NCBI GenBank assembly: GCA_937992195.1 | Contig: CALKKV010000003.1 | Location: 1 to 64,000 of the forward strand | Direction of reading: 5' to 3' | Origin: an uncultured Gammaproteobacteria bacterium | Lineage (GTDB): Bacteria; Pseudomonadota; Gammaproteobacteria; Arenicellales; Poriferihabitantaceae | Length of the DNA stretch: 64,000 nucleotides | In this document: positions 3,366 through 55,978 of the stretch, one piece after another | Numbering within the stretch: position 1 is the stretch's first letter | How the letters are laid out: every line of letters begins with the position of its first letter | Notes under the pieces: generated by a model | Seen by the model: the letters and a program-made list of their open reading frames with translations, nothing else | Databases searched by the model: none | What the model was told of the DNA's origin: nothing | Program-made: the position numbers and the translations under genes

Positions 3366-3369
3366 AAAA

Positions 3370-7890: not shown

Positions 7891-7916
7891 TCACATGGCG
7901 CGGCGTCTCTACAAGG

Positions 7917-10639: not shown

Positions 10640-10693
10640 CCCGACTTAACTGTTATTTTAAAAAACCTTTAAGGTAAATGATTTGCGGATCAA

Positions 10694-10720
10694 CCAGCCT
10701 GTCATCGTCATGCAGGCTGG
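10694..10720 (+). terminator. Inverted repeat after the iron operon
   Basis: CCAGCCTG (10694-10701) and CAGGCTGG (10713-10720) form a perfect 8-bp GC-rich stem with an 11-nt loop between convergent genes. There is no long T-tract; it may act in both directions. Confidence 0.45.
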
Positions 10721-10779
10721 CCGAAATTTCATAAAGGTTGTCTTCTATGCCGAAGAAACACTTAGTGAACCATGGTTTT

Positions 10780-11328: not shown

Positions 11329-11437
11329 GCTTTTGGGAAAATAATAGTTTGTTCTTAGTTTGTACCAAGCGGTAAAAACTAAGGGTAATTCATTGCCAAC
11401 CTATGGTCAACCAATTTTTACGGGAAGGTGGAATGCG

Positions 11438-12019: not shown

Positions 12020-12060
12020 AAACTTTGCTATTTAAAATTCCTTAGGGCGCGCATTCTAAA

Positions 12061-12096
12061 CAAAGCGATACAAACTTTGAAGTCTATATCGCTTTG
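12061..12096. promoter_or_regulatory. 10-bp inverted repeat between tetR and the TupA-like gene
   Basis: CAAAGCGATA (12061-12070) and TATCGCTTTG (12087-12096) are perfect inverted repeats with a 16-bp spacer. They sit downstream of the TupA-like gene and upstream of tetR, so they are either a terminator of the former or an operator for TetR. The A/T runs on the outside fit the terminator idea on the plus strand better than on the minus strand. Confidence 0.45.
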
Positions 12097-12126
12097 ATTT
12101 TTTTAAGTTATAGAATCGTGATAACT

Positions 12127-13032
12127 TTAATCCAGCAGATTCGAGAGATTAGAGCGCGGAACGTGGTTTTGACCGAGCCGTGTGTCCCATAGATCTCCTT
12201 GAGGTTCTGCAAATTCTGCATTGGCAAAAAACGCCTGTTCTCCGCCTATCAGGTAGCTGTTAATTGCGGATTGACCGCTATCTGATAATAGCCATTGCAC
12301 AAATTCTGTTGCCGCCCGGGTATTGGTATGCGGATGCACATCGGCGCTGACCATAACAACACCATATTGGTTAAACAGGTAGGGATCTCCGGTCAGCAGC
12401 ATTTCCAAATTTATACGCTTGGCGTGTTTCAACCATGTGCCGCGATCGCTCAAAGTATACGCGCTCAAACCATCGGCAATATTGAGCGCTGCACTCATAT
12501 TTGCGCCTGTTTCCAAATACCAACTGCCACTTTCTTTAGCGACATTTATCGACAAGTCCTGCCAAATTGACTGTTCTTTAAGGTGGGTGCCGCTGTCATC
12601 AGCGCGAGAAACGAACTTACTACGACTGTTTGCAATCCGCTTAAACGCTTCATGGATATCGTCAATGTGTCGAATGCCTGCAGGATCATTGTGTGGACCC
12701 ACTAATATGAAATCGTTATACATCAGGTCAAAACGTTCTACCCCAAAACCATCCTTTACGAACTGTCGTTCAGAGGGCTTGTGATGACCCAGCAGGATAT
12801 CAGCATCGCCACTTCGCGCCATGCGAATCGCTTGCCCCGTGCCTACAGATTGAATACGTACCCGGATGCCCGACTGCTTTTCAAAAGCAGGGAGAATGGC
12901 GTCATACAGACCGGAGTTTTCTATGGTGGTCGCCGATGCGACGCGAATATTTGTTGACTCACTCAACACCGGTGTCGTCGCTAACAGTAATCCCAAGCCG
13001 GCAAAAGTCAGTTGAAGTAAACCTATTTTCAT
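12127..13032 (-). CDS. TupA-like tungstate/molybdate-binding periplasmic protein
   Basis: 301-aa solute-binding protein with a Sec signal peptide (to ~residue 24). It carries TupA-family hallmarks: ATTIENSGLYDAILPAFEKQ, SVGTGQAIRMARSGDADILL, YNDFILVGP, SRADDSGTHLKE and AYTLSDRGTWL. Family members bind tungstate or molybdate oxyanions. No permease or ATPase gene is adjacent. The gene follows the remains of a molybdenum-dependent sulfite dehydrogenase on the same strand, so it may once have supplied metal for that enzyme. Confidence 0.85.
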   Translation of the reverse strand: MKIGLLQLTFAGLGLLLATTPVLSESTNIRVASATTIENSGLYDAILPAFEKQSGIRVRIQSVGTGQAIRMARSGDADILLGHHKPSERQFVKDGFGVERFDLMYNDFILVGPHNDPAGIRHIDDIHEAFKRIANSRSKFVSRADDSGTHLKEQSIWQDLSINVAKESGSWYLETGANMSAALNIADGLSAYTLSDRGTWLKHAKRINLEMLLTGDPYLFNQYGVVMVSADVHPHTNTRAATEFVQWLLSDSGQSAINSYLIGGEQAFFANAEFAEPQGDLWDTRLGQNHVPRSNLSNLLD

Positions 13033-13117
13033 TTATCGAGTAAACACTCCAATTCAAATTACTCTGACATCCTGCGACGAACAAAAGTTCGATACAGGTG
13101 CCAGAGTTCAAATACGC

Positions 13118-13540
13118 TTATTCGTAGTTGAAAATATCGGGTCGTGGATCAGCAATAAATCCGTCCTTATTCGGCATTTCAACGGCCGCCAGACTTTCTC
13201 CATCCAACGTCGCATTCTTGTCGAAAATATTTGCTTCGCCGAGAACATATGCAACAACTGCATAAACATCATCGTCTGACAAGGAGCCAGGTGCATTAAA
13301 CGGCATTGCGCGTTTAACATAGTCATACACCGTCGATGCATAGGGCCAATAACTTTCAACGGTTTTCTTCGGCTTGCCCGATGCCAAAGAGTCGCGTCCG
13401 CCAATTAATGGTGCAGCACCCAGGTCACTGTTGCCTTCGAGGTTGGCGCCGTGACAAGCAAGACAGTTGGCGGTATAGACTTCTTTACCTTGTTCATAAG
13501 TGCCACTGCCTGGAGGGGCACCGCGTCCGTCTGGCATCAC
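13118..13540 (-). CDS. soxD: SoxD-like cytochrome c, fused to a soxC scar
   Basis: Class I c-type cytochrome resembling the SoxD subunit of sulfite (sulfane) dehydrogenase. The haem site is CLACH and the likely methionine ligand is in AMPFNAPG; SYWPYASTVYDYVKRAMPF and the C-terminal MPNKDGFIADPRPDIF are SoxD-like. The frame has no signal peptide of its own: read upstream from 13540 it runs in frame into SoxC sequence (EWTGVPLSTLLREVGVEKG) with no intervening stop until the TAG at 13670. The N-terminus is therefore missing and the product is probably not exported or functional. Confidence 0.7.
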   Translation of the reverse strand: MMPDGRGAPPGSGTYEQGKEVYTANCLACHGANLEGNSDLGAAPLIGGRDSLASGKPKKTVESYWPYASTVYDYVKRAMPFNAPGSLSDDDVYAVVAYVLGEANIFDKNATLDGESLAAVEMPNKDGFIADPRPDIFNYE

Positions 13541-14145
13541 ATCGATATCAATTGCCGCGCCTTTTTCTACGCCTACTTCTCTTAATAAGGTAGAAAGCGG
13601 AACCCCGGTCCATTCAGATGTGCTGGTTAATCCATGGGTGCCTTGTACAGACTTAAGCGCCGGTTCTCGCTATTCAGTGAGGCCGTTACCCGAGCATTCG
13701 ATAAAATGGAATTTTGATACAGATGGAAAACGTTTCAGGTCTTCCATCGTATATTTTTTCGGGCTATTGACCAAGCCATGAACAACCATGGTATGGGTAG
13801 CGGGATCAATATTTGGTATGCCGCCATGGTGTCTTTCAAAGTGCAGCGCGGACGGTGTAACGATTCCGTTACTACTCTCCAGCGGTGTCATGGTCCATGA
13901 TGACTCTTTGGTTTTGGTTGGATAGCGCCAACGAACTTCACTTTCGAATTGTGATCTAAAACCATAACCACCATCGTCATGGGTAAGACGCCCTTGTTCT
14001 TTGGTGAGATCCCCTGAATAGGGAAATCTATTGCACCTGGTGGTGCCGCAGCGTGCGCGGTAGCTCCGGCGGTGACAGCAGCACTCGCGGCTGCGGCTGT
14101 CAGAAATTGACGTCGACTGGATGACACATCATTATCAGCCGCCAA
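13541..14145 (-). pseudogene. soxC: Broken soxC (Mo sulfite dehydrogenase), frameshift + stop + deletion
   Basis: Remains of the molybdopterin subunit SoxC. From the N-terminus: a twin-arginine signal (SSRRQFLTAAAA) ends in a frame that is lost near 14,020. The second frame holds TPSALHFERHHGGIPNIDP and FHFIECSGNGLTE, including the presumed Mo-ligand Cys, then meets a TAG (13670-13672) where family members have Trp. The same frame resumes with HGLTSTSEWTGVPLSTLLRE and then passes straight into SoxD sequence, so the SoxC C-terminal half is deleted. Three independent lesions make this a clear pseudogene. No ATG start is seen for the Tat segment; the frame stays open upstream to a TGA. Confidence 0.85.
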
Positions 14146-14710
14146 TCCCTGTTTGGGAAATATACCTTGCTTACATTCGCATGGTTCTTCTTCGGAAACG
14201 CTTTGTTGTTGCTTGCTTGTGAGCGCTTCATTCTCTAGATCGATAAGCTCGCGGATGATGCTTTTTGTCTTTGCATCGTAGTCCGCATTCTTTCAATCTC
14301 TTGCCATCTCAATACCTCGCTTCGTTAGTTGTGATTCCTCCACCACTTCCAAACCGAATCGCTCGCAAACCTGAAAAGTACCAGCGCGAAGACGCAGCTT
14401 GCCGAAAACGTAATAGTCGCGGACTAGAGCGCGAATGTAGTTTTGTATAATACTTGATCTCTATGGCGTTATTCGTAGCGGTTATGCAGAAATGAAAAAG
14501 CGCAACATATCAGTGTTTTATCCAAGAAATCACATGTAAATCAGCCTTTATTTTTGGCATCGATGAAAAATGCTATACATCCGGTCGAAAGCCATACCGT
14601 TTGTATCATACGAATACAGCACTGCATTGGCACAGCGAATTATTACGCGTTCTAGTTTAGTGAGGCTAGCCGAATAATGTCTTCAGTAGGAGCTGTGAGT
14701 GGAAAGCCAG
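14146..14710. other. Gene-free, degenerate stretch between sox relic and dioxygenase
   Basis: No intact gene is seen. The minus strand has stop-interrupted but protein-like frames (one ending in LTKRGIEMARD, another running into the soxC Tat region), as expected for decayed coding DNA. A short plus-strand frame at 14265-14450 has no recognisable features. Confidence 0.45.
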
Positions 14711-15760
14711 CTATGCAGGAGGAAGGGTTTCTGTGTACTTGGTGTTACCCTGATAGTAAGTGCCTTTGCCTTCCTGACTTTCTATTCCGTTTCTTTGTGC
14801 TTTTTCATCTATCACCGGGTTTATCGGCCTTGCGTTGTGAGCGCGTAACCACAATCTTAACAAATGTCTTTGTTTTTCCGGATCCGGGCTATCGAAAAAT
14901 TCGGTGCGGGTGTGCAGTACGACATAGTTATTGAAAAATGCAATTTCTCCCGGCTCCATCATAAAGTTCAAACGAAACTCTTCACTGTGCGCAACCTCAT
15001 CGAGGTAATCCAACGCTTCATTTTCCAATTTTTGTTTTTCTAAACCAAGTTCCTCAAAAGCCATTTCAATATAGCTGCGCAAATAACAAATACTGAGGTA
15101 GCCATCTTTCTCAGAAAATACCGGCACTTTTTCCTCGCTAACTGGAGATTCACCAGGGAGATGCTCACCGAACCGGTGATAGAGAAAGCCTTCTTCCAAT
15201 ACAGGAATCAATTCAGGTCGATGCTTTGCGATATGGTTAAAAACAGCTGGGCCGCTCGCGTATCCACTTAGTCCGCCTTTTTCTGCAGGCACAAGACACA
15301 TCATGCCAACAATATCACTGGCATCGGTATGCAGAGCGAGTTCTAAACTGTTTCGATAAGCACGTTCTCGTTGATCTTTTCCGCCCACGTTCACTACGTG
15401 TCCAAGTTTGTCGCCCATCGGGCTTTGCGATTGTGCTTCACCAAAGTAAGTAGAGATGCCCCAGTAAATAATTGCACATTCTTCTTTGCTGTACTTTTCA
15501 GTATCTATTCCTTTGAGTAGTAAGAGGCCTTTGCCTTCCTGCACTTCACTCACCCATTTATCTATTTCTTTTTCAATGGTAGAAATTGGAAAATCATCCT
15601 GGGTGATCTCTTCGACCTGAATATTCCGCTTTTGCACATGCCGAAGGGCTTGATCAAGTGTGTCTAGTACTTCTTTCTCGAGCTGAAAAGTAATCTCAGA
15701 TTTCGATTTAATATCACCGTTTTTCCAGGCTGACACGTGATCATAAAAATGCTGGCTCAT
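14711..15760 (-). CDS. TauD/TfdA-family Fe(II)/2-oxoglutarate dioxygenase
   Basis: ~349-aa non-haem iron oxygenase that couples 2-oxoglutarate decarboxylation to substrate hydroxylation. The facial triad is readable: H and D in LALHTDAS (~residue 145) and the distal His in VVLHTRTEF, followed by the 2OG-binding Arg in RHLLRLWLRA. The substrate is unknown; taurine, carnitine/butyrobetaine or other small acids are typical. I start at the second Met (15760, MSQHFYDH); a Met at 15772 adds four residues. It is divergent from the DMSP-lyase-like cupin, which suggests a shared promoter region. Confidence 0.87.
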   Translation of the reverse strand: MSQHFYDHVSAWKNGDIKSKSEITFQLEKEVLDTLDQALRHVQKRNIQVEEITQDDFPISTIEKEIDKWVSEVQEGKGLLLLKGIDTEKYSKEECAIIYWGISTYFGEAQSQSPMGDKLGHVVNVGGKDQRERAYRNSLELALHTDASDIVGMMCLVPAEKGGLSGYASGPAVFNHIAKHRPELIPVLEEGFLYHRFGEHLPGESPVSEEKVPVFSEKDGYLSICYLRSYIEMAFEELGLEKQKLENEALDYLDEVAHSEEFRLNFMMEPGEIAFFNNYVVLHTRTEFFDSPDPEKQRHLLRLWLRAHNARPINPVIDEKAQRNGIESQEGKGTYYQGNTKYTETLPPA

Positions 15761-15902
15761 AGTTGCTTCCATAATTGATTCGTTTAGTATCGATTACAAT
15801 AATATGGATTATTCTGATCAATACCTGGGAGAAATTCAAATAAAACAGAATACTGCGATTAGTTTTAGTCATAATGCGTTTGGATTCGGGAGTAAAAGAA
15901 CT

Positions 15903-16514
15903 ATGCAAAAAATAAATCCGTCAGTAGATATGTCTCACTTGGGTTGTGAGTGGATGGATATATTGCAAACTCAATGCCCGCCGGATTGGAAAGCACTGCT
16001 ACCTTCAGTGAATCTTGCTCGCACAGACCGCTTGTTACCTGCTAATTCGCTACCGGTTTTGTCCTATCTTCCAGAGATGGTCGAGCTGGCCCCGTCGTAT
16101 AATCAACCGCTGATAAAAGAGTTGATAAAACACAGAACAAAGCTTCACTTTAACCAGACCTATGGTGAAGATGATTTTGGTGCTGATTTTTTAAAACGGT
16201 ACGGCTGGATTAAATTTCTAGGTCCAGATGCTTATTGGCATAGCGATTCTCTGTCTAGCGGATTAGTTCTGTTGGGTGATAATGTATTGTATCCAGAACA
16301 CTGGCATGAAGCGGAAGAGCTTTATTTTCCTATTAGTGGCAGCGGTGACTGGTATCATGAAAACTATGGGTGGCGGCCTAAATCACCTGGGGATTGCATC
16401 GCCCATGAAAGCAACGTTAAACACGCTGTACGTACTAGTGGCGAGCCGCTTCTGTTATTGTACATTTGGAGAGGTGGTGATTTGCAACAAAAGTCTGACT
16501 ATCACAAGCGCTGA
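15903..16514 (+). CDS. DMSP-lyase-like cupin (DddL/DddQ family)
   Basis: Cupin metalloprotein resembling the DddL/DddQ/DddW dimethylsulfoniopropionate lyases, which cleave DMSP to dimethyl sulfide and acrylate. The metal-binding motif is YPEHWHEAEELYFPISG, with a second part GDCIAHESNVKHAV supplying the last histidine and a C-terminal EPLLLLYIWRGG typical of DddL. I prefer the ATG at 15903, which has GGGAG about ten bases upstream and leaves room for divergent promoters. An ATG at 15804 adds 33 unlikely-looking residues and lies only 43 bp from the dioxygenase start. The lyase activity itself is inferred. Confidence 0.75.
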   Translation: MQKINPSVDMSHLGCEWMDILQTQCPPDWKALLPSVNLARTDRLLPANSLPVLSYLPEMVELAPSYNQPLIKELIKHRTKLHFNQTYGEDDFGADFLKRYGWIKFLGPDAYWHSDSLSSGLVLLGDNVLYPEHWHEAEELYFPISGSGDWYHENYGWRPKSPGDCIAHESNVKHAVRTSGEPLLLLYIWRGGDLQQKSDYHKR

Positions 16515-16626
16515 TTTTTTGTAAGGTAGATTTACCCCTACCAAAAAAGATAGTGGGCTAAAATCTCATTTCTTAGCTTTCTTTTTCAAAGAGCTGCTCT
16601 CGTTACAACAGTATTAAAGATATATT

Positions 16627-17238
16627 ATGAAAGTCCTTGCTGCTTTAGTGTTCCCAGGATTTCAAACTCTGGATTTATTCGGACCGCTGGAGGTGCTCGG
16701 AGATCATCATCCAGGGGAAATCGATATAAAAATTGTGGCAGAGACACTTGAGCCAGTTCCAAGTGTTCACGGATTACGTCTTAACGTTGATCGTACGATC
16801 GCAGAAAGCTCGGACTACGATTTAATCTTAATTCCGGGTGGTGATGCGGCACCCGTAGCGCATCGGAATGCTGCAATCAATTCCTGGATTGTCAAAGCAT
16901 CCGTACGGGCCGAATACGTGATGGCGGTTTGCACCGGGACCGTATTACTTGCAACAACCGGGCTTCTGGACGGTCGACGCGCGACAACAAATAAAAGAGA
17001 TTACACCGCAACAGTTCCGTTTGGTCCAAATGTTCAATGGGTTCCTCAGGCGAGGTGGGTGGAAGATGGCAAGTTTTTTACTTCCTCTGGAGTGTCAGCC
17101 GGTATTGATATGAGTCTTGCAGTGATGGGTCGATTGTTCGGCGATGAAGCTGCCAACGAAATTGCAGAAGGAATAGAGTATGACTGGCATAGGGATTCAA
17201 ATTGGGATCCATTTGCGAAGCTTGCTGGTCTCATCTGA
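16627..17238 (+). CDS. DJ-1/PfpI-family protein
   Basis: 203-aa member of the DJ-1/PfpI superfamily, similar to isonitrile hydratase/ThiJ-like proteins. The start MKVLAALVFPGFQTLDLFGP is typical, the conserved acidic-Gly segment is ILIPGGDAAPV, and the nucleophile elbow is AVCTGT with the reactive Cys at about residue 101. The SSGVSAGIDMSL segment resembles the AraC-type GATase1 subgroup, but no DNA-binding domain is attached. The substrate is unknown. Confidence 0.85.
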   Translation: MKVLAALVFPGFQTLDLFGPLEVLGDHHPGEIDIKIVAETLEPVPSVHGLRLNVDRTIAESSDYDLILIPGGDAAPVAHRNAAINSWIVKASVRAEYVMAVCTGTVLLATTGLLDGRRATTNKRDYTATVPFGPNVQWVPQARWVEDGKFFTSSGVSAGIDMSLAVMGRLFGDEAANEIAEGIEYDWHRDSNWDPFAKLAGLI

Positions 17239-17378
17239 ATTTAACTGAGGCAAGAAAACAAACTGGAAAGAGGGTAATCCAGTTAAGCAAGCTCGCTTAA
17301 AAAACCTTATCGTGGCATTCTTGTTTCACGTTCAAAAAACAGGCTGGTCAATGCCGACGCAGCGCCAAGAATTCCTAA

Positions 17379-18647
17379 ATGAAAACTTCTCAAATTAGCG
17401 CATTAAGATCACTATCTCCCGCTGAAAGGCATAAGAAAGCATGCGAAGTGACAGGTATAGAAGCATGTCATGCACAGAATCTGTCAGCGCATCCAGCGTT
17501 AGCTATTGAAACTGCAGATGCCATGATCGAAAACGTGATTGGTACTTTCGAATTACCACTCGGGGTTGCGACGAACTTTCTGATAAACAACAAGGACTAC
17601 CTGATACCCATGGCGGTAGAAGAACCCTCTGTTGTTGCGGCTGCTTCGTATATGGCTAAACTGGTTCGTAAAGATGGGGGCTTTACTGCATCAACTACAG
17701 CACCGATTATGCGTGGCCAGCTACAAATACTTGGACTAGAAGATTTGGAGGAAGCGCAATTAAATCTTCTTGAACACAAAGATAGTCTGATCGCCAAAGC
17801 CAATGAACAGGATAAAGTGTTGTGCAGTATCGGCGGAGGATGTCAGGATTTAGAAGTGCATCTTTTTGCGGACACTGCAATCGGTCCAATGGCGGTATTA
17901 CATTTGTTGGTAGATGTGCGTGATGCCATGGGCGCGAACGCGGTTAACTCTATGGCAGAGTATATTGCTGCGGATGTTGAAAAAATTACTGGCGGCGAAG
18001 TGAGACTGCGCATTCTCTCTAATCTTGCAGATAGGCGACTGGCCAGCGCTTCGCTAAGGGTTTCGTCGACAACACTTAAAACCGATACTTTTTCGGGTGA
18101 TCGCGTTGCCCAGGGTATTGTTGAAGCAGGCGCATTTGCAGCGGTCGACCCTTACCGCGCAGCCACCCACAACAAGGGTATTATGAATGGGGTCGATCCA
18201 GTGGTCCTGGTGACGGGTAACGACTGGCGAGCGATTGAAGCAGGCGCGCACGCCTATGCATCTCAGAACGGTCGATACACTTCGTTAACTGACTGGCGTA
18301 TTGATAACGAAGGTTGGCTATGCGGGAAGATTGAAATGCCTATGGCGCTTGGTATTGTTGGTGGTGCAACAAAAACTCATCCCGCTGCTGCGGCCGCCCT
18401 GGAGATGATGCGTATCGAGTCAGCAACAGAACTTGCCGAGGTGGCGGTTACCGTAGGTCTGGCACAAAATATGGCTGCGTTACGTGCGCTATCTACAGAG
18501 GGAATTCAGCGCGGTCATATGGCATTACACGCGAGAAATATCGCGATCAATGCTGGCGCGATTGGTGATCAGATTCAAGAAGTTGCCGAGCAGCTGGTAA
18601 AGGAAGGCAATGTGACTGCAGACCGGGCTAGGAAGTTACTGCAGTAA
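17379..18647 (+). CDS. mvaA: Class II (degradative) HMG-CoA reductase
   Basis: Hydroxymethylglutaryl-CoA reductase of the class II type, interconverting HMG-CoA and mevalonate. 422 aa, close to the 428 aa of the Pseudomonas mevalonii enzyme. Landmarks are [18 protein letters not shown] (substrate loop), [14 protein letters not shown] with the catalytic Glu at 81/82, [13 protein letters not shown] with the nucleotide-site Asp, and the flap histidine in GHMALHARN. No other mevalonate genes are nearby, so direction (mevalonate use or isoprenoid synthesis) cannot be told from the window. Confidence 0.93.
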
Positions 18648-18804
18648 CCGTATCTTGAATGCGTTACTATTGGTTTCGGAGAGGTCGGGGTCAAACTTAA
18701 TCTTTGTGTCGCGAATTTGCGACATGTAAGCGTGTATTTGTTGACTCGGAATATTCTTTAATCCAATTTGTCATGTACAGCATATACGAGATTAAATTGA
18801 CTGT

Positions 18805-20814
18805 GTGCTAAAAAGTGAAATGGCGATCCTGAAAGCACTGTTGCTTATCAGTCAGGGTATAGCAGCAGTTATCTTTTTCGAGCACCTTCCTCAACGTAAA
18901 TTCGAAGAAAAAAAGAACAACGTGATACCCATACGCACTCGTGTTTTTGGCTTGAGTTTATTCGCTATAGTATTTTTGGCGATGGTGTTGTGTGGTTTTT
19001 CAATTCTGCTGCCTGAAATCGCCGAAATTGAGAGCGGGCATAGAATAATTGCAGGAGCTCTAATCTTTGATCGTATTATTCTTGATTTCATATTATTTCT
19101 GCTGATCGGAGCGGTGTTGATCAATGGTGGGGTAGTAAGTCGGATTTTTTCCTATGGGTGGAGTTTCTTACTGGTTTGTTGTTACATCTTTCAGCTTCTG
19201 GTTGTTTATATAAGCGGCGGGTTTCTGTCTTTTCTTGCGGTAGATAACTTCAACCACATTTCTCTGCTTGTGAATTTACCCAACGTTATGGCCTTGAGTT
19301 CAATCGTGTTTGTTTGGGGGCTGGTTGTTTATATTTTGGAGAAGAAATTTAGCGAGCGTCTTTCTGGGTCTAAATTAGTTCAAACTTCTTTGTGTCTTTT
19401 GGTATTAGCGGCTGTCATACATTTTTCGTCGGTATGGGCCCCTGATACCGCCGTCGCTCATATGCGTGAGTTTTATGAAAATCGCGCTGTTCGCGTGCAG
19501 CATAAGTCGCCAATGGAGGCTTTTTACAATGCAGTGTTCAAGCCCAGGGAGGGGGAGTTAAGGGCTTTCAGTCAGAATGATGCCGATCGAGCGTCACAGT
19601 TTGGAATAACTCTGGATCTGAATCGCCGTAATCCCTTGGTAAAGCCTGAAATCTATCAAGGAGACCCTCCGTTCAATAAAAAGGATGCAGCTTTAGAGCA
19701 TCCAAATGTTATTCTGGTTTTTGCGGAAGGACTTTCTGCCCGCACTGTCGATTTTTATGGTGGAGCTTGGGAAAACTTGACCCCAAATCTTGCTGACTTT
19801 GCTGAAAACGCAATGGTAGTGACGAACTATTATAATCACACCTACGCTACCTATCGCGGACTTTTAGGTCAGCTGTGTTCGATATTTCCAGCACGCGGAG
19901 GTCTCGGTGGTTGGCATACACATTACTCGGATATTAAGAAAACAGGATACTATTGTCTCAACGATTTATTCAAACAGTCTGGTTATGAAACTGGCTTTTT
20001 AGACACCCATAGAAAAGACGCAGCATATATTGACGAGATGATGTTGGGCCTGGGTTTTGATCAGGTTTATACCGCAGAAAATTTAGTGACTGAGCATGGT
20101 TTGTCTGAACCGCTTCGTTCTGACTCCATGTCTGATCAGCAGTTGTTTGAAGGATTAATTAGGATATTGAAAGCTAGAGAACAGGAGAAAACAGCAACAC
20201 CATTTTTCCTGTCGATGTATAACCTTGAAACCCATGTCTTTCAAAAAATTGCCAGTGATGGAAAAGCATATTCAGCTAATTCGAACTATATCCTCGATAC
20301 GATTCATAACTATGACGATGCATTCGGTAAGTTCTGGCGCTATTTTCAGGAATCCGGTTATGCGAGTAACACGGTAGTTATTTTTACCGCAGACCATGCA
20401 CGTTATTCAGATCGAGACTACGTTGACTTGATGCAAGAACAGTCAGACTATCTCCCTTATTTTGTTGACAAGATCCCATTGGTGATTTACGACCAAAATA
20501 TGGAGTTACCCCAAGACTATGATGCTCAACACGCGACGTCGCTAAATCTCGCACCTTCGATTGCTCATTTGTTAGGCCTTAAAAATGGGCCCAATGCATT
20601 TACAGGGAGATCAATTTTTGAGGCTAACAATCTGGGCGGTGACGCTATAGCTTCGGCGGATCAGGAGCACTATCTGATTAATTCGGAAGGTATTGTGTTG
20701 AATACAGCAACCAATGACCGTGAAAAAGAGCTTGAGTTTGTCGGGTATCTTGTAAATACTCTGCGTCAGCTGGAGATTCATGATCGATTATGGCCAGAGA
20801 ATTTCGAAGAATGA
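18805..20814 (+). CDS. LTA-synthase-like membrane sulfatase/phosphoethanolamine transferase
   Basis: 669-aa protein with about five N-terminal TM helices and a large periplasmic alkaline-phosphatase-fold domain of the LtaS/sulfatase type. The metal Glu is in ILVFAEGLSA and the nucleophile Thr in NHTYATYRG, and the second metal centre is FTADHARY. Such enzymes transfer phosphoglycerol or phosphoethanolamine to envelope glycans or lipids. The target here is unknown; the gene faces the envelope operon at 20.9-24.7 kb. Translation starts at GTG 18805. Confidence 0.85.
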   Translation: MLKSEMAILKALLLISQGIAAVIFFEHLPQRKFEEKKNNVIPIRTRVFGLSLFAIVFLAMVLCGFSILLPEIAEIESGHRIIAGALIFDRIILDFILFLLIGAVLINGGVVSRIFSYGWSFLLVCCYIFQLLVVYISGGFLSFLAVDNFNHISLLVNLPNVMALSSIVFVWGLVVYILEKKFSERLSGSKLVQTSLCLLVLAAVIHFSSVWAPDTAVAHMREFYENRAVRVQHKSPMEAFYNAVFKPREGELRAFSQNDADRASQFGITLDLNRRNPLVKPEIYQGDPPFNKKDAALEHPNVILVFAEGLSARTVDFYGGAWENLTPNLADFAENAMVVTNYYNHTYATYRGLLGQLCSIFPARGGLGGWHTHYSDIKKTGYYCLNDLFKQSGYETGFLDTHRKDAAYIDEMMLGLGFDQVYTAENLVTEHGLSEPLRSDSMSDQQLFEGLIRILKAREQEKTATPFFLSMYNLETHVFQKIASDGKAYSANSNYILDTIHNYDDAFGKFWRYFQESGYASNTVVIFTADHARYSDRDYVDLMQEQSDYLPYFVDKIPLVIYDQNMELPQDYDAQHATSLNLAPSIAHLLGLKNGPNAFTGRSIFEANNLGGDAIASADQEHYLINSEGIVLNTATNDREKELEFVGYLVNTLRQLEIHDRLWPENFEE

Positions 20815-20870
20815 AGATAAATTAAATTTTTGGCTTCTCCGTGGATTTTTTGAACTGGTCCTTTTCGAAA

Positions 20871-21683
20871 TCAAAACACAGACCATCTTCTGATCAGTCG
20901 GTATTGAAAATGCTCTCCCTCTCCGCGCATATGTACTTCTGAAAAAACCTCTAGCTCTTTGTTCGAAAAGAGTTGGCGATTCGTAATCGACATTGACTTT
21001 ATGTCTTGATAGTTAAATGCCTCAGAGAATTCAAGTTGTAACCAGTTGACCGCGGAGCTGTTGTGTTCCGTGACTGAGCTAATTTCACCGATGCCTTCAA
21101 CAGTAAGTAAGACTTGATAATCGGGTAGTTCGCTGTTTTTTACCAACCCCCAATTTCTATCACTATCTTCTGTGGCAGTCTGCACCAGCTTTAATTCCAT
21201 GTCAGTAATTTTGTTTCCGTACGTAAAGTAACCAAACACGATTGCCAGCGATATCAGCACTACAAAAACACCTGCATTCCTTTTGCGTCGTCTGCCTGTA
21301 AACAACGCGAAAAAATCAAACAGTGGGTTGCAGCCGCATCCAGATGTTGCGCCGGTTTCGGCAGCTCCACCACCTAGATCGGTCAATCCACTGAAGCAAC
21401 CCTCAGCACCACCAACATCGAAGCATCCGGAGATTCCACAATCAAACTCCAGTCGTTGCTGGGAGCGCAGAACATTTGCGGATTGATGACATGCGATAAA
21501 CCTATTGACTATGTCGGGAGACCCGGCGATCAGGCCTTTGGTCTGAATTATTTCCAGTACAGCACTAGAACAAGAGTCTGTTCGATATAAAACACGATAT
21601 GCGCAACTAAACCCTTTGTTCGGCGAAATAGTTTTTTTGTACCAAACTATGGTTTTTCGGGCGATGCTATCCAGAATCCACAT
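20871..21683 (-). CDS. Membrane protein with YidD-like N-terminal domain
   Basis: 270 aa. Residues 1-65 resemble YidD (membrane insertion efficiency factor): a helix followed by WYKKTISPNKGFSCAYR, a Cys-containing SCSSAV segment, KGLIAGSPDIVNRFIAC. Then comes a Cys/Gly-rich linker (~80-120, including ATSGCGCNPLFDFFALF), a TM segment at about 137-155 and a ~115-residue predicted extracytoplasmic domain with no recognised family. YidD itself is ~85 aa, so this is an unusual fusion. It is the last gene of a minus-strand operon with two VWA-type proteins. Confidence 0.65.
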   Translation of the reverse strand: MWILDSIARKTIVWYKKTISPNKGFSCAYRVLYRTDSCSSAVLEIIQTKGLIAGSPDIVNRFIACHQSANVLRSQQRLEFDCGISGCFDVGGAEGCFSGLTDLGGGAAETGATSGCGCNPLFDFFALFTGRRRKRNAGVFVVLISLAIVFGYFTYGNKITDMELKLVQTATEDSDRNWGLVKNSELPDYQVLLTVEGIGEISSVTEHNSSAVNWLQLEFSEAFNYQDIKSMSITNRQLFSNKELEVFSEVHMRGEGEHFQYRLIRRWSVF

Positions 21684-21829
21684 TTGTGCTTATCTCCTTG
21701 AATATAATTTCTACTTTTAATCCTCCAGCACTTATCCAATGCCAGTTTATTGGGTGAGTCAGAGGCTCTCGTTATTGGCTCTGGTTTCTACCTATAGATT
21801 TGTTAAGACATCTATAGCAATGACGATCG

Positions 21830-22225
21830 TCACTTGAACTCGATTACTTCCCAGCCATCGGGCTCTATCGAGCCATCAGACAGTAAGATTTTTTTCTGTG
21901 CTGGTGTCTGTTCGTATTTTCTTAGGGTATCCGCGTTCATTCTTCCAAAGGCAGTTCTAAAAATCACGGAGGAGGATTTAAGTTTGCGAAACTCCCCGAG
22001 TGTTGCTTTGTCAGTGCCGACAATCAGCTTTTCGTAGCGCGCGCTGGACACATGATTTTTTAGCCATTTCTCCATCTTTGGAAAATGCGGTTTCATCGAA
22101 TATGAAGTATCTACCACAACAAGAACCTGCGATGGCGACGCCGTTAAATATCGATCCGCACCGACCCATCCTGCAATATGAATCATCGCAAACGCAGCAA
22201 ACACAGATAACCATTTCTTAGTCAA
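21830..22225 (-). CDS. Small membrane-anchored VWA-like protein
   Basis: 131 aa with an N-terminal hydrophobic signal/anchor (residues 5-25) followed by a minimal VWA-like start: QVLVVVDTSYSMKPHF has the D-x-S-x-S MIDAS order, and ILLSDGSIEPDGWEV resembles a later strand with the LSDG motif. It is about half the usual VWA length. It lies 43 bp downstream of the large VWA lipoprotein gene and is probably co-transcribed. Function is unknown. Confidence 0.6.
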   Translation of the reverse strand: MTKKWLSVFAAFAMIHIAGWVGADRYLTASPSQVLVVVDTSYSMKPHFPKMEKWLKNHVSSARYEKLIVGTDKATLGEFRKLKSSSVIFRTAFGRMNADTLRKYEQTPAQKKILLSDGSIEPDGWEVIEFK

Positions 22226-22268
22226 TGCCTTATTCCTTCGGTAATAAGTTGTCCAATGACAGTCTTTC

Positions 22269-23942
22269 TTACATCTCGGAGTTCAATAAATTTCCGATAC
22301 GATAAGATGCCGAACGGGCGCTTGATTCGATATAGGCGCCCTCGGCGAGACTAGCCAGTTCCTTCAGGTGATCTGACGATAGTTCATAAGCTATAGAGTG
22401 GATCGGAATACCTGACCATTCTAGGGCATCACGTACTTCCTCGAACTCAATGCCTCGATTGGTTTCGCCATCGGACAAAACAAAAATAACTAGCCTGTGT
22501 TCCGGGTTTGTTTGGGCGAATTCATTCATCATATTAGCCGCAACCACTACTGCGTCATTGGTTGCTGTCTTGCCGCCGGGCGTTAGACGTTCTACAGCAC
22601 CAATGAATAGGGATTTCTGCTGAACATCAAACGGCCTGACGTACAAATCAACGTTGACACGGTCATGGTAAGTTACCAAACCAATAGAATTGGTAGAGCT
22701 GATCAGATCGGAAGACTCGATAAGTGCTCTCTGCATATTTTCAATTCGGCTGCCTTCCATCGAGCCCGAAATATCGGCAACGAAAACTGCTGCGATCGGG
22801 CGGCCACCGGACTTCTTTTGTTTCCATAACTTTTGGGCTTGACCAATAATTGAGCTATCTTGTAAAGCATAACTATTTTTGTATTCGGGATTTCTGTTAA
22901 ATCCAAAGTCCTGTAAATCAGCCTGTTGCTTGCTAAGAAAATCAGCAAACAGGGACAGTACCTCTCTTTCATTTTCATCTGCTTCCGGCGTGGCATAAAG
23001 AGGGCTATCGTGACGAACTCCAAAAGGTACAAAAGTATAGTCGTCCATCCCAGTCACGTTGACCCAGGACTGATACTCCATCACCATTGCATCGAGTACG
23101 CCACTTCCCTGCGCGGCATCGCGCATTTGTATTGTGGTTTGTGCGACAAAAGGGACGCCCGCCTGAAATGCTTCGAATGCGCTCGATACATCTGGCGATA
23201 ACATTTGAGATTCATCCCCTTCGGCAAATGAATTCAACACCATCATAAGAAAGTTGAGGCCGGTGCTTGATTGGTATGGATTGGTATAACCCATAGCGAA
23301 ACTGCCGCTGGTTACGCTGGTGAGTAGTTTTGCGACGTCAAGATTACCCCCTGTAGTAATTTCATCAACCTTCGACTTTTTGACAATGATACCTGCAGTA
23401 TTGGGCGCAGTAGCCTCAGCAATCATATCGACAGAAATACCATTTGCCTCTAGCATGTTACCCCATAGGAAATTACTGGGAGAAAACGCATCAGGCGTAT
23501 ATTTGCGCGCCAGCATAAATTGCGTACCAAGACCAGAAGCGATCTTGCGAATATTTATCGCTGCGGTCTTGCCGTTTCCAATCGCTATTCGCTGTTGATT
23601 AAACGCAGCCGCAATTTGGTTAAAGTAACCATCTCGACCTTTACCCGCTTTTTCAGAAGAAGTAAAAATCTCCACCGCTTCAACATTTGCACTGTCGGCT
23701 ATTGGAGAGACGATTGGATAGTCATTTAGATCGGGTAGCAGCGACAATAGATTGGTCTGGGTCAGTTGAATATTGGCCCGATAAGTATTCTCGTTATACC
23801 TAGGTTGGATCGTCTCACTGACCAATGAAGCGATTTTCTCGTTAGCCTTCTCCGGTGAATCTATCTTGCTCTCGCAGCCAACTAAAGCAAGGCTGGCAAA
23901 AATCATCGCTGGAATGGTCAATTTCTTATAGGTTAATTTCAT
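22269..23942 (-). CDS. Solute-binding-like/VWA lipoprotein
   Basis: ~557-aa lipoprotein: the signal ends in ALVGC (lipobox). Residues ~60-360 look like a periplasmic binding-protein fold (SPIADSANVEAVEIFTSSEK, FMLARKYTPDAF, GYTNPYQSSTGLNFLMMVLN). Residues ~380-550 are a von Willebrand A domain with an intact MIDAS, VADISGSMEGSR, plus LSDGETNRG. VWA domains use a bound divalent metal for protein-protein contacts. I start at 23942 because AGGAG lies four bases upstream; an ATG at 23954 overlaps that ribosome site. It is the core of the operon spanning 20.9-24.7 kb. Role unknown. Confidence 0.85.
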   Translation of the reverse strand: MKLTYKKLTIPAMIFASLALVGCESKIDSPEKANEKIASLVSETIQPRYNENTYRANIQLTQTNLLSLLPDLNDYPIVSPIADSANVEAVEIFTSSEKAGKGRDGYFNQIAAAFNQQRIAIGNGKTAAINIRKIASGLGTQFMLARKYTPDAFSPSNFLWGNMLEANGISVDMIAEATAPNTAGIIVKKSKVDEITTGGNLDVAKLLTSVTSGSFAMGYTNPYQSSTGLNFLMMVLNSFAEGDESQMLSPDVSSAFEAFQAGVPFVAQTTIQMRDAAQGSGVLDAMVMEYQSWVNVTGMDDYTFVPFGVRHDSPLYATPEADENEREVLSLFADFLSKQQADLQDFGFNRNPEYKNSYALQDSSIIGQAQKLWKQKKSGGRPIAAVFVADISGSMEGSRIENMQRALIESSDLISSTNSIGLVTYHDRVNVDLYVRPFDVQQKSLFIGAVERLTPGGKTATNDAVVVAANMMNEFAQTNPEHRLVIFVLSDGETNRGIEFEEVRDALEWSGIPIHSIAYELSSDHLKELASLAEGAYIESSARSASYRIGNLLNSEM

Positions 23943-23979
23943 AAAACTCCTCATGTAAACCGCGACAGCTGTGCGAAGC

Positions 23980-24690
23980 CTAATTGCCCGAACGACTCGC
24001 TAATTCCGCAAGACCAACCAGTCTTGCCAAGGTATCAGTGCGTTCAAACTTGCTAAACGATCGCATATTCGCGACCTCCACAGCTGTCTCTGTTAATGCA
24101 TCAAATAGTTTGCGATTTTCTGCCAGGTTTGTATTCAGTCTGGCAGTTTGATCGCTATGTAAACTTTGGTGTTTCTCATGGCGTCCCATATCTTCTTCGG
24201 ATCCACGACCTTGTTCGTTGGGTCGACTCAACTCTATGCTTGAAATACTATGCCCCACAGCAACCACGTCCACGAGATTCTGTAGTGCGTGTTTTTGTAC
24301 TGTTCTAGCGGCTGATAAGTATTCCAACGGGCTATGTTTCTTTCCAAGAAAACGCGTTTCTACAACCGAGTGATAGTCATCAATAATCTCGTTCAGCAAG
24401 TCTGCTTGGCGCACGCCTTCGTCAATTTTCAGCGCGACAAGATCTGTGCGAGTGCTTTCAAGCAACTCATGCATCTCTGCGTATTCACTGGCCTCCCGAT
24501 CTCGCAACCACCTTGCATCATCCTCAATCGAATAACCAAGCAGACGGTAGGCCACCGGCACCGATAAGATTGCCAATATTGACAGTCCCAAATAGATTCC
24601 GCTGAGCACCCAACTACCTTGAAACCACCAATGGAATAACACTAGCAGAGGCAATGAGATAATTGCCGAGAGTAGAATAATTTTTTTGAT
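23980..24690 (-). CDS. Two-TM coiled-coil membrane protein, probable AUC start
   Basis: Hypothetical membrane protein with two N-terminal TM helices and a long charged helical region with toxic-anion-resistance-like heptad spacing, but no family I can name. The best N-terminus (KKIILLSAIISLPLLVLF) begins at an ATC codon at 24690. A strong GGGGGAGG ribosome site (24697-24704) lies six bases upstream, and no ATG, GTG or TTG exists at that spot. The nearest normal start is TTG 24654, which would cut off half the first TM helix. First gene of the VWA operon. Confidence 0.6.
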   Translation of the reverse strand: MKKIILLSAIISLPLLVLFHWWFQGSWVLSGIYLGLSILAILSVPVAYRLLGYSIEDDARWLRDREASEYAEMHELLESTRTDLVALKIDEGVRQADLLNEIIDDYHSVVETRFLGKKHSPLEYLSAARTVQKHALQNLVDVVAVGHSISSIELSRPNEQGRGSEEDMGRHEKHQSLHSDQTARLNTNLAENRKLFDALTETAVEVANMRSFSKFERTDTLARLVGLAELASRSGN

Positions 24691-51804: not shown

Positions 51805-53982
51805 ATGTTTCTAACGATAAAAAATACAATGCGAGGCGTTTTTGCGGCTGCAGCCATTGCTGCTGCCACACTACCAGCTGGAGTACAGGCCGCTGGACTT
51901 CTCACCCCGTCAGATTCTTCTGCACCCGGTGCATCGACACCACTGGATATTCGTAGTCACGATGTTGACGTTGTTGTTCAGGATGGATATGTCATTACCG
52001 AAGTTGAGCAGGTGTTCAGTAATCCGCACAGTCAGGATCTGCAAGCGCTGTATGCGTTTCCTATTCCAGAGAACGCGCTGGTTACCGCGTTCACGGTATG
52101 GATCGATGGCAATCCAGTTGTCGGTGAGGTTCTAGAGAAGGACAAGGCGCGACAGGTTTACGAGGAAGAAAAAAATGCGGGGCGCGAAGCAGGTTTGACC
52201 GAACAAAATAGCTTCAAGCGCTTCGAGATCAGCGTCAGTCCTGTTCGCGCGATGAGTGACACCAGAATCAAACTGCAATATATGCAGGTCGCTGATATTG
52301 ATACGGGCATCGGACGCTATGTGTATCCCTTGGAAGAAGGCGGTACAGATGATGAAAAGCTGGCATTCTGGACATCCAATGAAATCGTCAAGGAACGATT
52401 CAGTTTCAATCTTCATCTGCGGTCCGCCTATCCTGTCGATGCAGTGCGATTGCCAAATCACCCAGACGCACTGGTGACAAAAGAAAGTGAGGGAGAGTGG
52501 CGTATTGAAATCCTCCGAAATGGTGGCACAGCTACTACTTCCAGTCCGGCTGTCGACGACGATACTGATCAACAAGACGTGTCTACGTTAGCCCAGTCAG
52601 GCTATAAGGAAGAGCAAACCGGTGTTGTCGAACAAAACTTTGGTCAACAGTTTGCCAGCGGTTTAGACAACGATATTGTTCTCTACTGGCGCCTGTCAGA
52701 AAATGCGCCTGCGTCTCTCGACTTGACAGCCTATAAAGCACCAGGCGCTGCCAACGGTACGTTTATGATGGTGATGACACCTGGAGACGACCTTCCGGTC
52801 ATTAATCAGGGGCGGGACTGGATGTTTGTCCTGGATATCTCAGGCTCTATGCAAGGTAAGTACCATACTCTGGTAGAGGGCGTAAACCGCGCGTTGACCA
52901 AAATGCACGACGAAGATCGTTTTCGAATCGTCCTGTTTAACAAAAACGCCAGAGAGCTTACACAAGGCTGGACCCCGGCGACCAACGAGAACGTCCAGCG
53001 ATATATTAATAAAGTTAGGAATACTCAGCCTAATGGCGGCACCAATCTTTTTGAAGGTATCGCTCAAGGGGCTTCGGGTCTCGACGCAGACCGTACTACG
53101 GGTATCGTTCTGGTTACCGATGGTGTAGCCAATGTAGGACACGTTGGCAACAAGCATTTTCTCAAGTTACTGGCGAAACAGGACGTCAGGCTATTCACCT
53201 TTATTATGGGCAATGAAGCGAATCGCCCTTTGCTTGAGTCGCTTACAGATTACACCAATGGTTTTGCGATCAATATTTCAAACAACGACGATATTGTGGG
53301 TAAGCTGTTGGAAGCGACACAAAAAATCAATCACCAGGCAATGCACAACGTACGTGTAGATATCAGTGGCGTGAGAACTTCTGATATCACCCCCGAGCTG
53401 TTTGGTACCGTGTATCGCGGTGAGCAGCTTGTTGTAATGGGAAAGTACGCACACGCCGGCGAAGTTATTGTGGATCTGAAGGCTGAGATTTCTGGTCAAC
53501 CAGTGGAGTACTCAACGCGCTTCAACCTCCCAGACATGAATGAGGAGAACCCTGAGTTGGAAAGACTATGGGCATTCGCCAAAATCCAGGGGCTAAAAAA
53601 AATGGAAGACCTGCTGGGTGCGGATGCGGATCGCCAGTCAGCAATGACAGATATTGCACTCGATCATGGCATCGTGACAGAAAAGACATCAATGCTTGTG
53701 ATCCGTGAGGAGCAATTTGTCGCGCGCAATATAGAACGGCGAAATAAAAAGCGGGTTGAACTGGAAAATTCCGCTCAGCAACAAAGAAAGTCGCAACCGG
53801 TTACTCAACGACGGGTAGACAATAGTCAGAGTGCGAGTAAACCCATGTTTGAGAAAAAGCGTGCGACCTATAGTAGTGGTGGCAGCAGCGGTGCCTTCGA
53901 TTCATACTGGTTATTGCTCTTGACGCCAATGGCGGTTGCGTTACTGCGCAAACGATTGCTTCCTGTCAGAGATAGGGCGTAA
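51805..53982 (+). CDS. VIT/VWA surface protein with GlyGly-CTERM-like tail
   Basis: 725-aa exported protein of the 'marine proteobacterial sortase target' type. Signal peptide to ~residue 29. VIT domain at about 45-180 (DVDVVVQDGYVITEVEQVFS, YAFPIPENALVTAFTVWIDG). VWA domain at about 330-500 with an intact MIDAS (FVLDISGSMQGK, VLVTDGVANVG). The last 36 residues are SSGGSSGAFDSYWLLLLTPM..., then a basic end: Gly/Ser stretch, one TM helix and arginines, i.e. a rhombosortase (GlyGly-CTERM) sorting tail, not an LPxTG. The next gene is a rhombosortase. Confidence 0.85.
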   Translation: MFLTIKNTMRGVFAAAAIAAATLPAGVQAAGLLTPSDSSAPGASTPLDIRSHDVDVVVQDGYVITEVEQVFSNPHSQDLQALYAFPIPENALVTAFTVWIDGNPVVGEVLEKDKARQVYEEEKNAGREAGLTEQNSFKRFEISVSPVRAMSDTRIKLQYMQVADIDTGIGRYVYPLEEGGTDDEKLAFWTSNEIVKERFSFNLHLRSAYPVDAVRLPNHPDALVTKESEGEWRIEILRNGGTATTSSPAVDDDTDQQDVSTLAQSGYKEEQTGVVEQNFGQQFASGLDNDIVLYWRLSENAPASLDLTAYKAPGAANGTFMMVMTPGDDLPVINQGRDWMFVLDISGSMQGKYHTLVEGVNRALTKMHDEDRFRIVLFNKNARELTQGWTPATNENVQRYINKVRNTQPNGGTNLFEGIAQGASGLDADRTTGIVLVTDGVANVGHVGNKHFLKLLAKQDVRLFTFIMGNEANRPLLESLTDYTNGFAINISNNDDIVGKLLEATQKINHQAMHNVRVDISGVRTSDITPELFGTVYRGEQLVVMGKYAHAGEVIVDLKAEISGQPVEYSTRFNLPDMNEENPELERLWAFAKIQGLKKMEDLLGADADRQSAMTDIALDHGIVTEKTSMLVIREEQFVARNIERRNKKRVELENSAQQQRKSQPVTQRRVDNSQSASKPMFEKKRATYSSGGSSGAFDSYWLLLLTPMAVALLRKRLLPVRDRA

Positions 53983-53985
53983 ACC

Positions 53986-54660
53986 ATGCAATCTCCACGT
54001 ATTCCCTGGGTTACTGCGATGATCACCATGGCGATGACCTCGTTATACATCGTAGCCGGTCCTGTTCCGGAGGCCTGGGTGTACGACCGCGCTGCTGTCC
54101 TCGATGGGGAATTGTGGAGACTGTTGACTGGCCATCTGGTGCACTCTGATCTGAGTCACCTCAGCTGGAATCTCGCGGGCACCCTGGTTCTGGGGTGCCT
54201 GCTGGAACGCACTACAAACACGTCAATTGCAGCAATGACTCTTGTTGGCGCAATCGCCATTGCTTTGTTGTTGCTCTGGCAACCAACTATTGCCTACTAC
54301 TGCGGGTTTTCTGGTTTGCTTAACACCTGGCTCGCGTCGTTATTAATTTACGAATACCAGGATAACGCGATGCGCCCTATGGTTGTCGTCACTGCCCTTG
54401 GCGTATTGGCGAAACTGGTTTACGAATGGCAAACAGGTAATGCGATATTTACAGATACGACCTGGCCCAGCCTGCCCGAGGCGCATCTGACAGGTTTGAT
54501 CGCGGGAATTTGCTGGTGGGTAGTGAAGAACAAATTCCAATACGCCTTCACTGCTTACGCTGTGAAGAAATTAAAAACTTCGCCAGACTCAATCGAAGTG
54601 AGCGGCAACAGATTTACACAACAACCTGAAAAGGAGCTCGACAATGTATATGAAATTTAA
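53986..54660 (+). CDS. rrtA: Rhombosortase-like rhomboid protease
   Basis: 224-aa rhomboid-family intramembrane serine protease. The family landmark GHLVHSDLSHLSWNLAG (~49-65) is followed by YYCGFSGLLNTWLASL with the catalytic Ser at S109. The partner His is H167 in AHLTGLIAG. The ~200-aa six-TM core without extra domains is the rhombosortase shape; the ~45-residue cytoplasmic tail is extra. It starts three bases after the VIT/VWA gene, so enzyme and presumed substrate are one pair. Confidence 0.85.
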   Translation: MQSPRIPWVTAMITMAMTSLYIVAGPVPEAWVYDRAAVLDGELWRLLTGHLVHSDLSHLSWNLAGTLVLGCLLERTTNTSIAAMTLVGAIAIALLLLWQPTIAYYCGFSGLLNTWLASLLIYEYQDNAMRPMVVVTALGVLAKLVYEWQTGNAIFTDTTWPSLPEAHLTGLIAGICWWVVKNKFQYAFTAYAVKKLKTSPDSIEVSGNRFTQQPEKELDNVYEI

Positions 54661-55057
54661 AAAGCTTGTAACACTGATAGCCATAACGCTTATTCCAATC
54701 AGTACGCCAGCGATTGGTGAGATGGATAGTATGACCAGCTCTGCAATCTCGCTAGTAAGTCCCGCAATCCTGGTATCAGGTAGTGTGTTGCTGGTTCACG
54801 CAAGTGGCGCTGCCGTCATTACCGCGATCAAACCAGTTGGTAAGAGCGTCTTGGTCTCGTTGAAATCCGCCACCGATGGGTCCATCGCAACGGTCAAGTT
54901 CAGTGGAAAAGCTGTTGGAGCCAGTGCCTTGACCGTAGGCGAAACAATCAAAGTTGTAGCCGGCGCCGCGGGTAGCATGCTGGTGTACTCCGGAGAAATA
55001 CTTGCTGTCATTCCCAATACACTGGGTCAGTCGTTGTTACATCAGTCAACGCACTAG
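54644..55057 (+). CDS. Small exported hydrophobic protein of the rhombosortase operon
   Basis: 137 aa with a signal peptide (to ~25, STPAIG). The mature part is Ala/Gly/Val/Ser-rich with hydrophobic segments (ISLVSPAILVSGSVLLVHAS, IKVVAGAAGSMLVYSGEILA) and no charged cluster. GGAG lies eight bases before the ATG, and the start overlaps the rhombosortase gene by 17 bp. No known family. Probably a periplasmic or membrane partner of the operon. Confidence 0.65.
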   Translation: MYMKFKKLVTLIAITLIPISTPAIGEMDSMTSSAISLVSPAILVSGSVLLVHASGAAVITAIKPVGKSVLVSLKSATDGSIATVKFSGKAVGASALTVGETIKVVAGAAGSMLVYSGEILAVIPNTLGQSLLHQSTH

Positions 55058-55066
55058 GCAAATACA

Positions 55067-55978
55067 ATGAACCGACTGTTTGTTTTGGTAATCCTATGGC
55101 TTGCAGCCTGGCAGCCAGCATTGTCGCTGGCTGCCTGTAAACAGGAAACGATTTCGCAGGACGCTTTCAATAAGGCAAGTAATCTTGGTGTCAAACTTAT
55201 TGAACAACTGGAACGCCTGAATCCCCGTGTTGCGCTGGTTGGTCGGGCGGGTACCGATTTATCTAAATATGGCCTTAAGTATAGCCATGCGGGGCTGGTT
55301 TTTCGTAATCATCCGAAGGGTAAATGGGTTTTTACGCACCTGCTGGTTCGATGTGGGGAGACCGTATCCAAACTGTATGATGAGGGTGCTATTACCTTCT
55401 TTTCCGATAATCCGCATAAATATCAGGCAATCCTGATTGTCCCTAACCCTGCGCTGCAGATTGAACTGGAGAAACTGCTGCTCGAAGGCACCGCCAGAAA
55501 CCTGCACGAAGGCCGCTACAGCGTCATTGCCAATCCGGACAAGCTCCTATACCAGAATTCCAATCAGTGGGTGCTTGAAATGCTTGCAGTGGCCAAATCA
55601 ATTTACCTGCCAGCGGATCAGCGCAGACACGCAATCAAGCTTGCGATGGAATACGGATTTCAACCTGAGACCGTCAAGGTGGGGTTTTTTAAACGACATT
55701 TGGCGGCGATGTTTCACCCGCATGTGAAGCTGGATGATCATAGCCAGGACGACCGATTAAGCGGAAAGTTTTCCGTCGTAACCGTTAAATCTATCAAGCA
55801 GTTTCTTGAAATAAACCACGATGTGGAGTCGATCACCGAAATCGATCTGCTTGGATCGCGCACAAACACTTATCAGCCGCCAACACCAAAGAGCAAACCA
55901 CAACGCACTATTCGCCATCGTCAACCTGTGAGTCGTCGAACATCGCAGTCAAGCTCTGCAACGGATTTCTGGCACTGA
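55067..55978 (+). CDS. DUF2145-family exported protein
   Basis: 303 aa with a signal peptide (to ~22, LSLAA). It matches DUF2145 by VALVGRAGTDLSKYGLKYSH, AGLVFRNHPKGKWVFTHLL and LYDEGAITFFSDNPHKY; the conserved H/C/N residues in these segments suggest a hydrolase-type (NlpC/P60-like) site, but the function is unknown. A basic, Pro/Ser-rich tail ends SATDFWH. Ten bases after the small protein. Its last 25 bases are duplicated upstream of the operon. Confidence 0.8.
   Translation: MNRLFVLVILWLAAWQPALSLAACKQETISQDAFNKASNLGVKLIEQLERLNPRVALVGRAGTDLSKYGLKYSHAGLVFRNHPKGKWVFTHLLVRCGETVSKLYDEGAITFFSDNPHKYQAILIVPNPALQIELEKLLLEGTARNLHEGRYSVIANPDKLLYQNSNQWVLEMLAVAKSIYLPADQRRHAIKLAMEYGFQPETVKVGFFKRHLAAMFHPHVKLDDHSQDDRLSGKFSVVTVKSIKQFLEINHDVESITEIDLLGSRTNTYQPPTPKSKPQRTIRHRQPVSRRTSQSSSATDFWH

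Follow-up and report, generated by a model that had tools for sequence, protein, structure and literature searches.

A VIT-VWA surface protein and an adjacent asparagine-type rhombosortase as a probable dedicated protein-sorting pair in an uncultured gammaproteobacterium

How is a VIT-VWA surface protein sorted when the gene that follows it encodes a rhomboid protease instead of a sortase? The question is raised by a locus in a 64,000-nucleotide stretch of DNA (the window; positions 1 to 64,000 of contig CALKKV010000003.1, assembly GCA_937992195.1) from an uncultured member of the Poriferihabitantaceae (Gammaproteobacteria; Arenicellales). An earlier reading of the sequence (the original prediction) had suggested that a sortase and its LPxTG-like target tail had been exchanged here for a rhombosortase and a GlyGly-CTERM-like tail. 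Our analysis starts from what was directly observed, namely the gene order, the conserved linkage, the build of the tail, family membership by hidden Markov model (HMM) and an Asn signature. The best explanation is that the VIT-VWA and rhomboid genes very probably form a dedicated one-to-one protein-sorting pair, in which the active site of the enzyme has been remodelled.

The VIT-VWA protein and its rhomboid neighbour

Open reading frame (ORF) analysis placed both genes in a tight cluster of four, all on the + strand, with a gap of 3 nt between the VIT-VWA gene and the rhomboid gene. The ORFs, this gap, and Ser109 (in GFSG) and His167 of the rhomboid were confirmed from sequence and alignments as first described. 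A promoter and terminator scan gave signals no better than those of shuffles. The features of the pair are as follows.

51805..53982, + strand: VIT-VWA surface protein, proposed dedicated substrate (725 aa; Pfam VIT and VWA)
51805..51891, + strand: N-terminal signal peptide, likely ending ...GVQA (by eye from the sequence)
51949..52281, + strand: VIT domain, residues 49-159 (PF08487)
52822..53292, + strand: VWA domain, residues 340-496, with an intact metal ion-dependent adhesion site, DxSGS at D344-S348 (PF00092/PF13768)
53872..53979, + strand: GlyGly-CTERM-like tail of Gly/Ser run, transmembrane (TM) helix and Arg/Lys cluster (from sequence; same build in orthologues)
53986..54660, + strand: rhombosortase, Asn type (224 aa; TIGR03902)
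54310-54312, 54322-54324 and 54484-54486, + strand: catalytic Ser109, Asn113 and catalytic His167 of the rhombosortase

The product of the first gene matched Pfam VIT at 105 bits and VWA_3 at 55 bits, and aligned with its orthologues from linked loci at 44-53% identity. Residues D344, S346, S348, T413 and D439 of the VWA domain were invariant in the orthologue alignment A1, and AxGL, with which the mature protein begins, was also kept. The tail, SSGGSSGAFDSYWLLLLTPMAVALLRKRLLPVRDRA, has a tripartite Gly/Ser, TM, Arg build that is retained in the orthologues, and to this extent its description as GlyGly-CTERM-like holds. The Gly/Ser motif, Leu-rich TM segment, basic C-terminus and signal peptide that mark a GlyGly-CTERM protein were all found in the sequence and alignment, the signal peptide by eye.

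The product of the second gene scored 112.6 bits on the NCBIfam rhombosortase model TIGR03902, whose cut-off is 84. This upholds its assignment as a rhombosortase; it also matched Pfam Rhomboid at 50 bits. Ser109 and His167 were invariant in the alignments, with Ser in TM4 and His in TM6 as the family expects, and the enzyme carries both WRLLT (WRxxS/T, in L1) and AHLTGLIAG (AHxxGxxxG, in TM6). A rhombosortase is expected to have a target in its genome, adjacent if it is the sole one, and the neighbouring tripartite-tailed protein is such a target. The predicted structure (predicted local distance difference test score 90.7) aligned to E. coli GlpG with a Z score of 20 and 2.5 Å over 166 residues. 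The two share the rhomboid fold, a Ser/His dyad and an HxxxN motif, but the window enzyme has Asn113 in place of GlpG Tyr205 and reached 23.7 bits on the GlpG model TIGR04239, against a cut-off of 250. According to Haft & Varghese 2011 (PMC3237569), virtually all rhombosortases carry a His four residues past the catalytic Ser (Ser+4; SGxLH), where ordinary rhomboids carry Tyr. The window enzyme reads SGLLN instead, for which reason we class it with a variant arm and not among the typical rhombosortases.

It could be envisaged that this is a housekeeping rhomboid which merely adjoins a membrane-anchored protein, the tail being a plain, unprocessed anchor. The absence of the diagnostic His would fit, as would the failure of TIGR03501 to match the tail (see below) and the published ability of GlpG-type rhomboids to likewise cut GlyGly tails, as described for VesB (PMC6219818). 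However, TIGR03902 stayed below its cut-off in all 14 control genomes, E. coli among them, and ordinary rhomboids have Tyr, not Asn, at the GlpG position. Moreover, the genome encodes a separate ordinary rhomboid on contig C53 (56.7 bits, Tyr at Ser+4), and the linkage is kept from Gammaproteobacteria to Desulfobulbaceae and Alphaproteobacteria. Weighed together, these points make a housekeeping role very unlikely, and favour the dedicated pair.

Linkage was assessed by searching for the window VIT-VWA protein in 119 related genomes, in which 9 members of the GlyGly type were found, all 9 adjoining a rhombosortase. In addition, named genome contigs were scanned with a seven-sequence alignment, which confirmed 258 relatives; among the best 80 of the 258, found by VIT-VWA alone, a rhomboid lay beside the VIT-VWA gene in 39, and in 32 of these 39 the genes overlapped or were separated by no more than 20 nt. 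The pairing is far above chance, and the linked loci come from Gamma-, Beta- and Alphaproteobacteria and from Desulfobacterota, including Desulfobulbaceae; Sedimenticola and Uliginosibacterium are examples of genera with a linked enzyme. In the VIT-VWA tree the window protein grouped with those of a Sedimenticola metagenome-assembled genome and genome G035. Within the window's genus the pair is sporadic, with a rhombosortase in one of five genomes (the window's own). Unlinked VIT-VWA genes were scattered among the linked ones in the tree, both forms occurring for example in Thiodiazotropha, and their products kept Gly/Ser tails. The simplest reading would be that genomes with a general rhombosortase have lost the dedicated enzyme again and again; where the partner is missing, the VIT-VWA protein retains its tail and would presumably be served by a general rhombosortase encoded at another site.

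Asparagine in place of the hallmark histidine

A survey of the Ser+4 position found Asn in 49 of 51 VIT-VWA-linked rhombosortases, a set that includes a few identical copies. Among 118 further rhombosortases, which came mostly from a class-wide sample, His was present in 99 and Asn in 3 (Fisher p 3e-36, with kinship ignored). Among these Asn exceptions, L287 is cut by a contig end and groups within the linked clade, and L040 adjoins a GlyGly-tailed lipoprotein-like protein. In genomes with an unlinked VIT-VWA protein of the same group (Alcanivorax, Cocleimonas and others) the Asn form was found in 0/30; their rhombosortases lie elsewhere in the genome and carry His, Tyr, Gln, Thr or another residue. 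Where both enzymes coexist (n=8), the linked one had Asn and the unlinked one His in 8/8 genomes. No further TIGR03902 match was present in 25 of 37 linked genomes.

Ser+4 was the most discriminating alignment column between the two arms (Jensen-Shannon divergence 1.0), and further arm-specific changes ranked high at Trp61 (TM2), Cys106 (just before the catalytic Gly-x-Ser) and Trp160-Pro (the loop before the catalytic His). By analogy with GlpG, Trp160, Trp61 and Cys106 would be close to the active site or to the loop that caps it. A quick tree built after removal of the Ser+4 column again recovered the linked enzymes as a cluster (Shimodaira-Hasegawa-like approximate likelihood ratio test, 95). 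Adjacency to a target was considered as the sole cause of the Asn and rejected, as His-type enzymes that adjoin other GlyGly-tailed targets (L256, L257, L284) retain their His.

The VIT-VWA-linked rhombosortases are thus a recognisable arm of the family, with Asn replacing the hallmark His, and this arm looks new. In its general form, the pairing of VIT-VWA proteins with rhombosortases has been published knowledge since 2011: the part of PMC3237569 that concerns dedicated pairs (Table 3, Fig. 3C) describes rhombosortases beside a single GlyGly-tailed target, which a single-target enzyme tends to adjoin, as well as VIT-VWA homologues with GlyGly-CTERM tails. In contrast to the Asn seen here, that paper gives His at Ser+4 for virtually all rhombosortases, and a VIT-VWA-dedicated arm is not set apart in the portions of it that were read. 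Asn113 occupies the position of GlpG Tyr205, a residue that stacks on the catalytic His, and may therefore influence the dyad or determine which acceptor is used. A bolder proposal, which we regard as possible but rather doubtful, is that the Asn-type enzymes act as a separate sorting arm beside the general His-type enzymes of the same cell, with a substrate specificity of their own, or with another acceptor for the newly formed C-terminus, owing to the remodelled residues around the dyad.

Several points weigh against a dedicated pair with its own enzyme type. Neither TIGR03501 (curated cut-off 15.5 bits) nor the other GlyGly-CTERM tail models matched the window tail, and orthologous tails gave weak or below-cut-off TIGR03501 scores, 10.4-10.8 bits at best. 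The HMM check that had been suggested thus gave no hit for the tail, and the label GlyGly-type is based on architecture and on conservation among orthologues; TIGR03501 found nothing across the window's genome, yet it found nothing in any control genome either and is little informative there. A difference between linked and unlinked substrate tails did not survive a tree-aware test. The Asn exception L225 is a lone case without a VIT-VWA neighbour, and two linked Oceanospirillaceae enzymes inside the Asn clade have Tyr (L135) or Phe (L148) at Ser+4, like ordinary rhomboids. In a careful tree without the Ser+4 column, support for the linked clade was moderate (68/83). The Asn is largely the trait of one clade, reflecting mostly one ancient event followed by retention, and the counts above are not independent. 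Finally, the proposed cleavage near the Gly/Ser motif is drawn by analogy from VesB and RssP of Vibrio cholerae. A candidate tail signature for partners of Asn-type enzymes, Asp after a Gly-Ala-x step (present in 25 of 39 linked tails and in 7 of 39 unlinked ones), was rejected as not independent on the tree.

On the model of VesB and RssP, the VIT-VWA protein would be exported by Sec and held in the inner membrane by its tail, and after the cut by the rhombosortase its new C-terminus would probably be joined to a lipid head group. The protein might then move to the cell surface, possibly via the type II secretion system; gspJ-K-L-like genes are present on contig C57 of the window's genome. 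For VesB, published work describes both the cut made by RssP and display at the surface by way of type II secretion (PMC6219818, PMC13393428). RssP is a rhomboid of the same family which acts on a tail of the same Gly-rich, TM, basic build, but it serves six GlyGly-CTERM targets, the proteases VesA, VesB and VesC among them, and not one adjacent VIT-VWA protein. A one-substrate subfamily with a single conspicuous active-site change, together with the eight genomes in which both enzymes coexist, offers a ready comparison for target choice by rhombosortases and for hydrolysis versus transamidation, and SGxLN versus SGxLH provides a simple rule for annotating dedicated VIT-VWA rhombosortases.

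A different kind of neighbour was seen at L040 (genome G109, 7204-8734) and L290 (genome G339, 2356-3730), where the rhombosortase adjoins a lipoprotein-like protein that combines a lipobox at its N-terminus with a Gly-rich tail at its C-terminus. Ser+4 is Asn in the enzyme of L040, and that of L290 has an unusual sequence at this site.

The sortase cassette and the proposed swap

Had the sorting machinery been swapped, the lineage's sortase-dependent VIT-VWA protein would have exchanged its LPxTG tail and sortase for a GlyGly tail and rhombosortase. The known marine proteobacterial sortase and target (TIGR03784/TIGR03788) resemble the window pair in that the VIT-VWA target gene lies just before that of the sorting enzyme, but they combine an LPxTA-like tail with a cysteine transpeptidase, whereas in the window the tail is of the Gly/Ser kind and the enzyme is an intramembrane serine protease. 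The window VIT-VWA protein scored 211 bits on TIGR03788, below the cut-off of 551.65. Such a cassette was found in the same genome, on contig C51 (locus L036, genome G000, 10000-24000), where a second VIT-VWA protein is followed directly by a sortase (77.7 bits to PF04203), and the tail of this protein, MPNTATP, passes the LPXTG model (18.5 bits against a cut-off of 15.9). The original prediction had named a sortase acting on the window protein from elsewhere as a refutation. The C51 sortase does not provide it, since this enzyme has its own neighbouring target and an LPxT-like motif is absent from the window protein.

Tails of the GlyGly-CTERM, PEP-CTERM or LPXTG kind on VIT-VWA homologues had been shown before, in PMC3237569 (Fig. 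3C), and since homologous proteins carry either tail type, an exchange must have occurred at some time in the history of the family. However, the sortase-type and GlyGly-type proteins form two groups divided by one long branch, without mixing among about 105 sequences; one group holds 18 sortase-linked rows and the other 86 Gly/Ser-tailed proteins. The other genomes examined from the window's genus carry either the sortase type alone or neither of the two. As the sortase cassette is still in place, a swap within the window's genome was rejected, and in the lineage at large it is a highly improbable account of the locus.

The small exported protein and the DUF2145 protein

Two further genes complete the cluster.

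54644..55057, + strand: small exported protein, ATG at 54644 or 54650 (outside the core pair)
55067..55978, + strand: DUF2145 protein (outside the core pair; PF09916, 201 bits)

The small ORF gave no family above cut-off in Pfam and NCBIfam model searches. Both had been proposed as further members of the system, which would imply that the VIT-VWA protein, once cleaved, is acted on or modified by them. Their tight spacing, the small ORF overlapping the end of the rhomboid gene and being followed after 9 nt by the DUF2145 gene, is in favour of such a four-gene system, as is the identical four-gene order in G035 (locus L092). However, in most of the DUF2145 loci read, a small exported protein lies just upstream of DUF2145 without a rhombosortase nearby. 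Of the 28 linked loci whose downstream sequence was long enough to judge, one had DUF2145 beside the pair, and besides the window only G035/L092 has this arrangement; as these two are close in the VIT-VWA tree, it may be a single inherited one. The small ORF and DUF2145 gene are an independent two-gene module, their core membership was rejected on synteny, and a joint action of all four genes is improbable.

The predicted structure of the DUF2145 protein matches that of E. coli YiiX (2if6; Z 12.0, 165 residues, 3.5 Å), a permuted papain-like fold, and a 2023 classification lists DUF2145 as papain-like with Ser replacing Cys (PMC10318531). In our alignment a Ser type (QNSNQW, that of the window) and a Cys type (QNCTEF) were distinguished at the nucleophile position (L032-L035, L296-L300), and the invariant His corresponds to His74 of the window protein. 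The window's genome has one DUF2145 protein of each type, the Ser type on contig C3 and the Cys type on C24. The small exported protein also falls into two sequence types, in agreement with the Ser/Cys division of DUF2145 (L030-L035, L291, L292, L295-L300). Pairs of the Cys type are often flanked by a divergent regulator-like gene (..SEASVKRMF.. or ..SQASIKRMF..; L034, L035, L296, L298, L299), and in L042 and L044 the gene after the rhombosortase is of a similar regulator-like kind.

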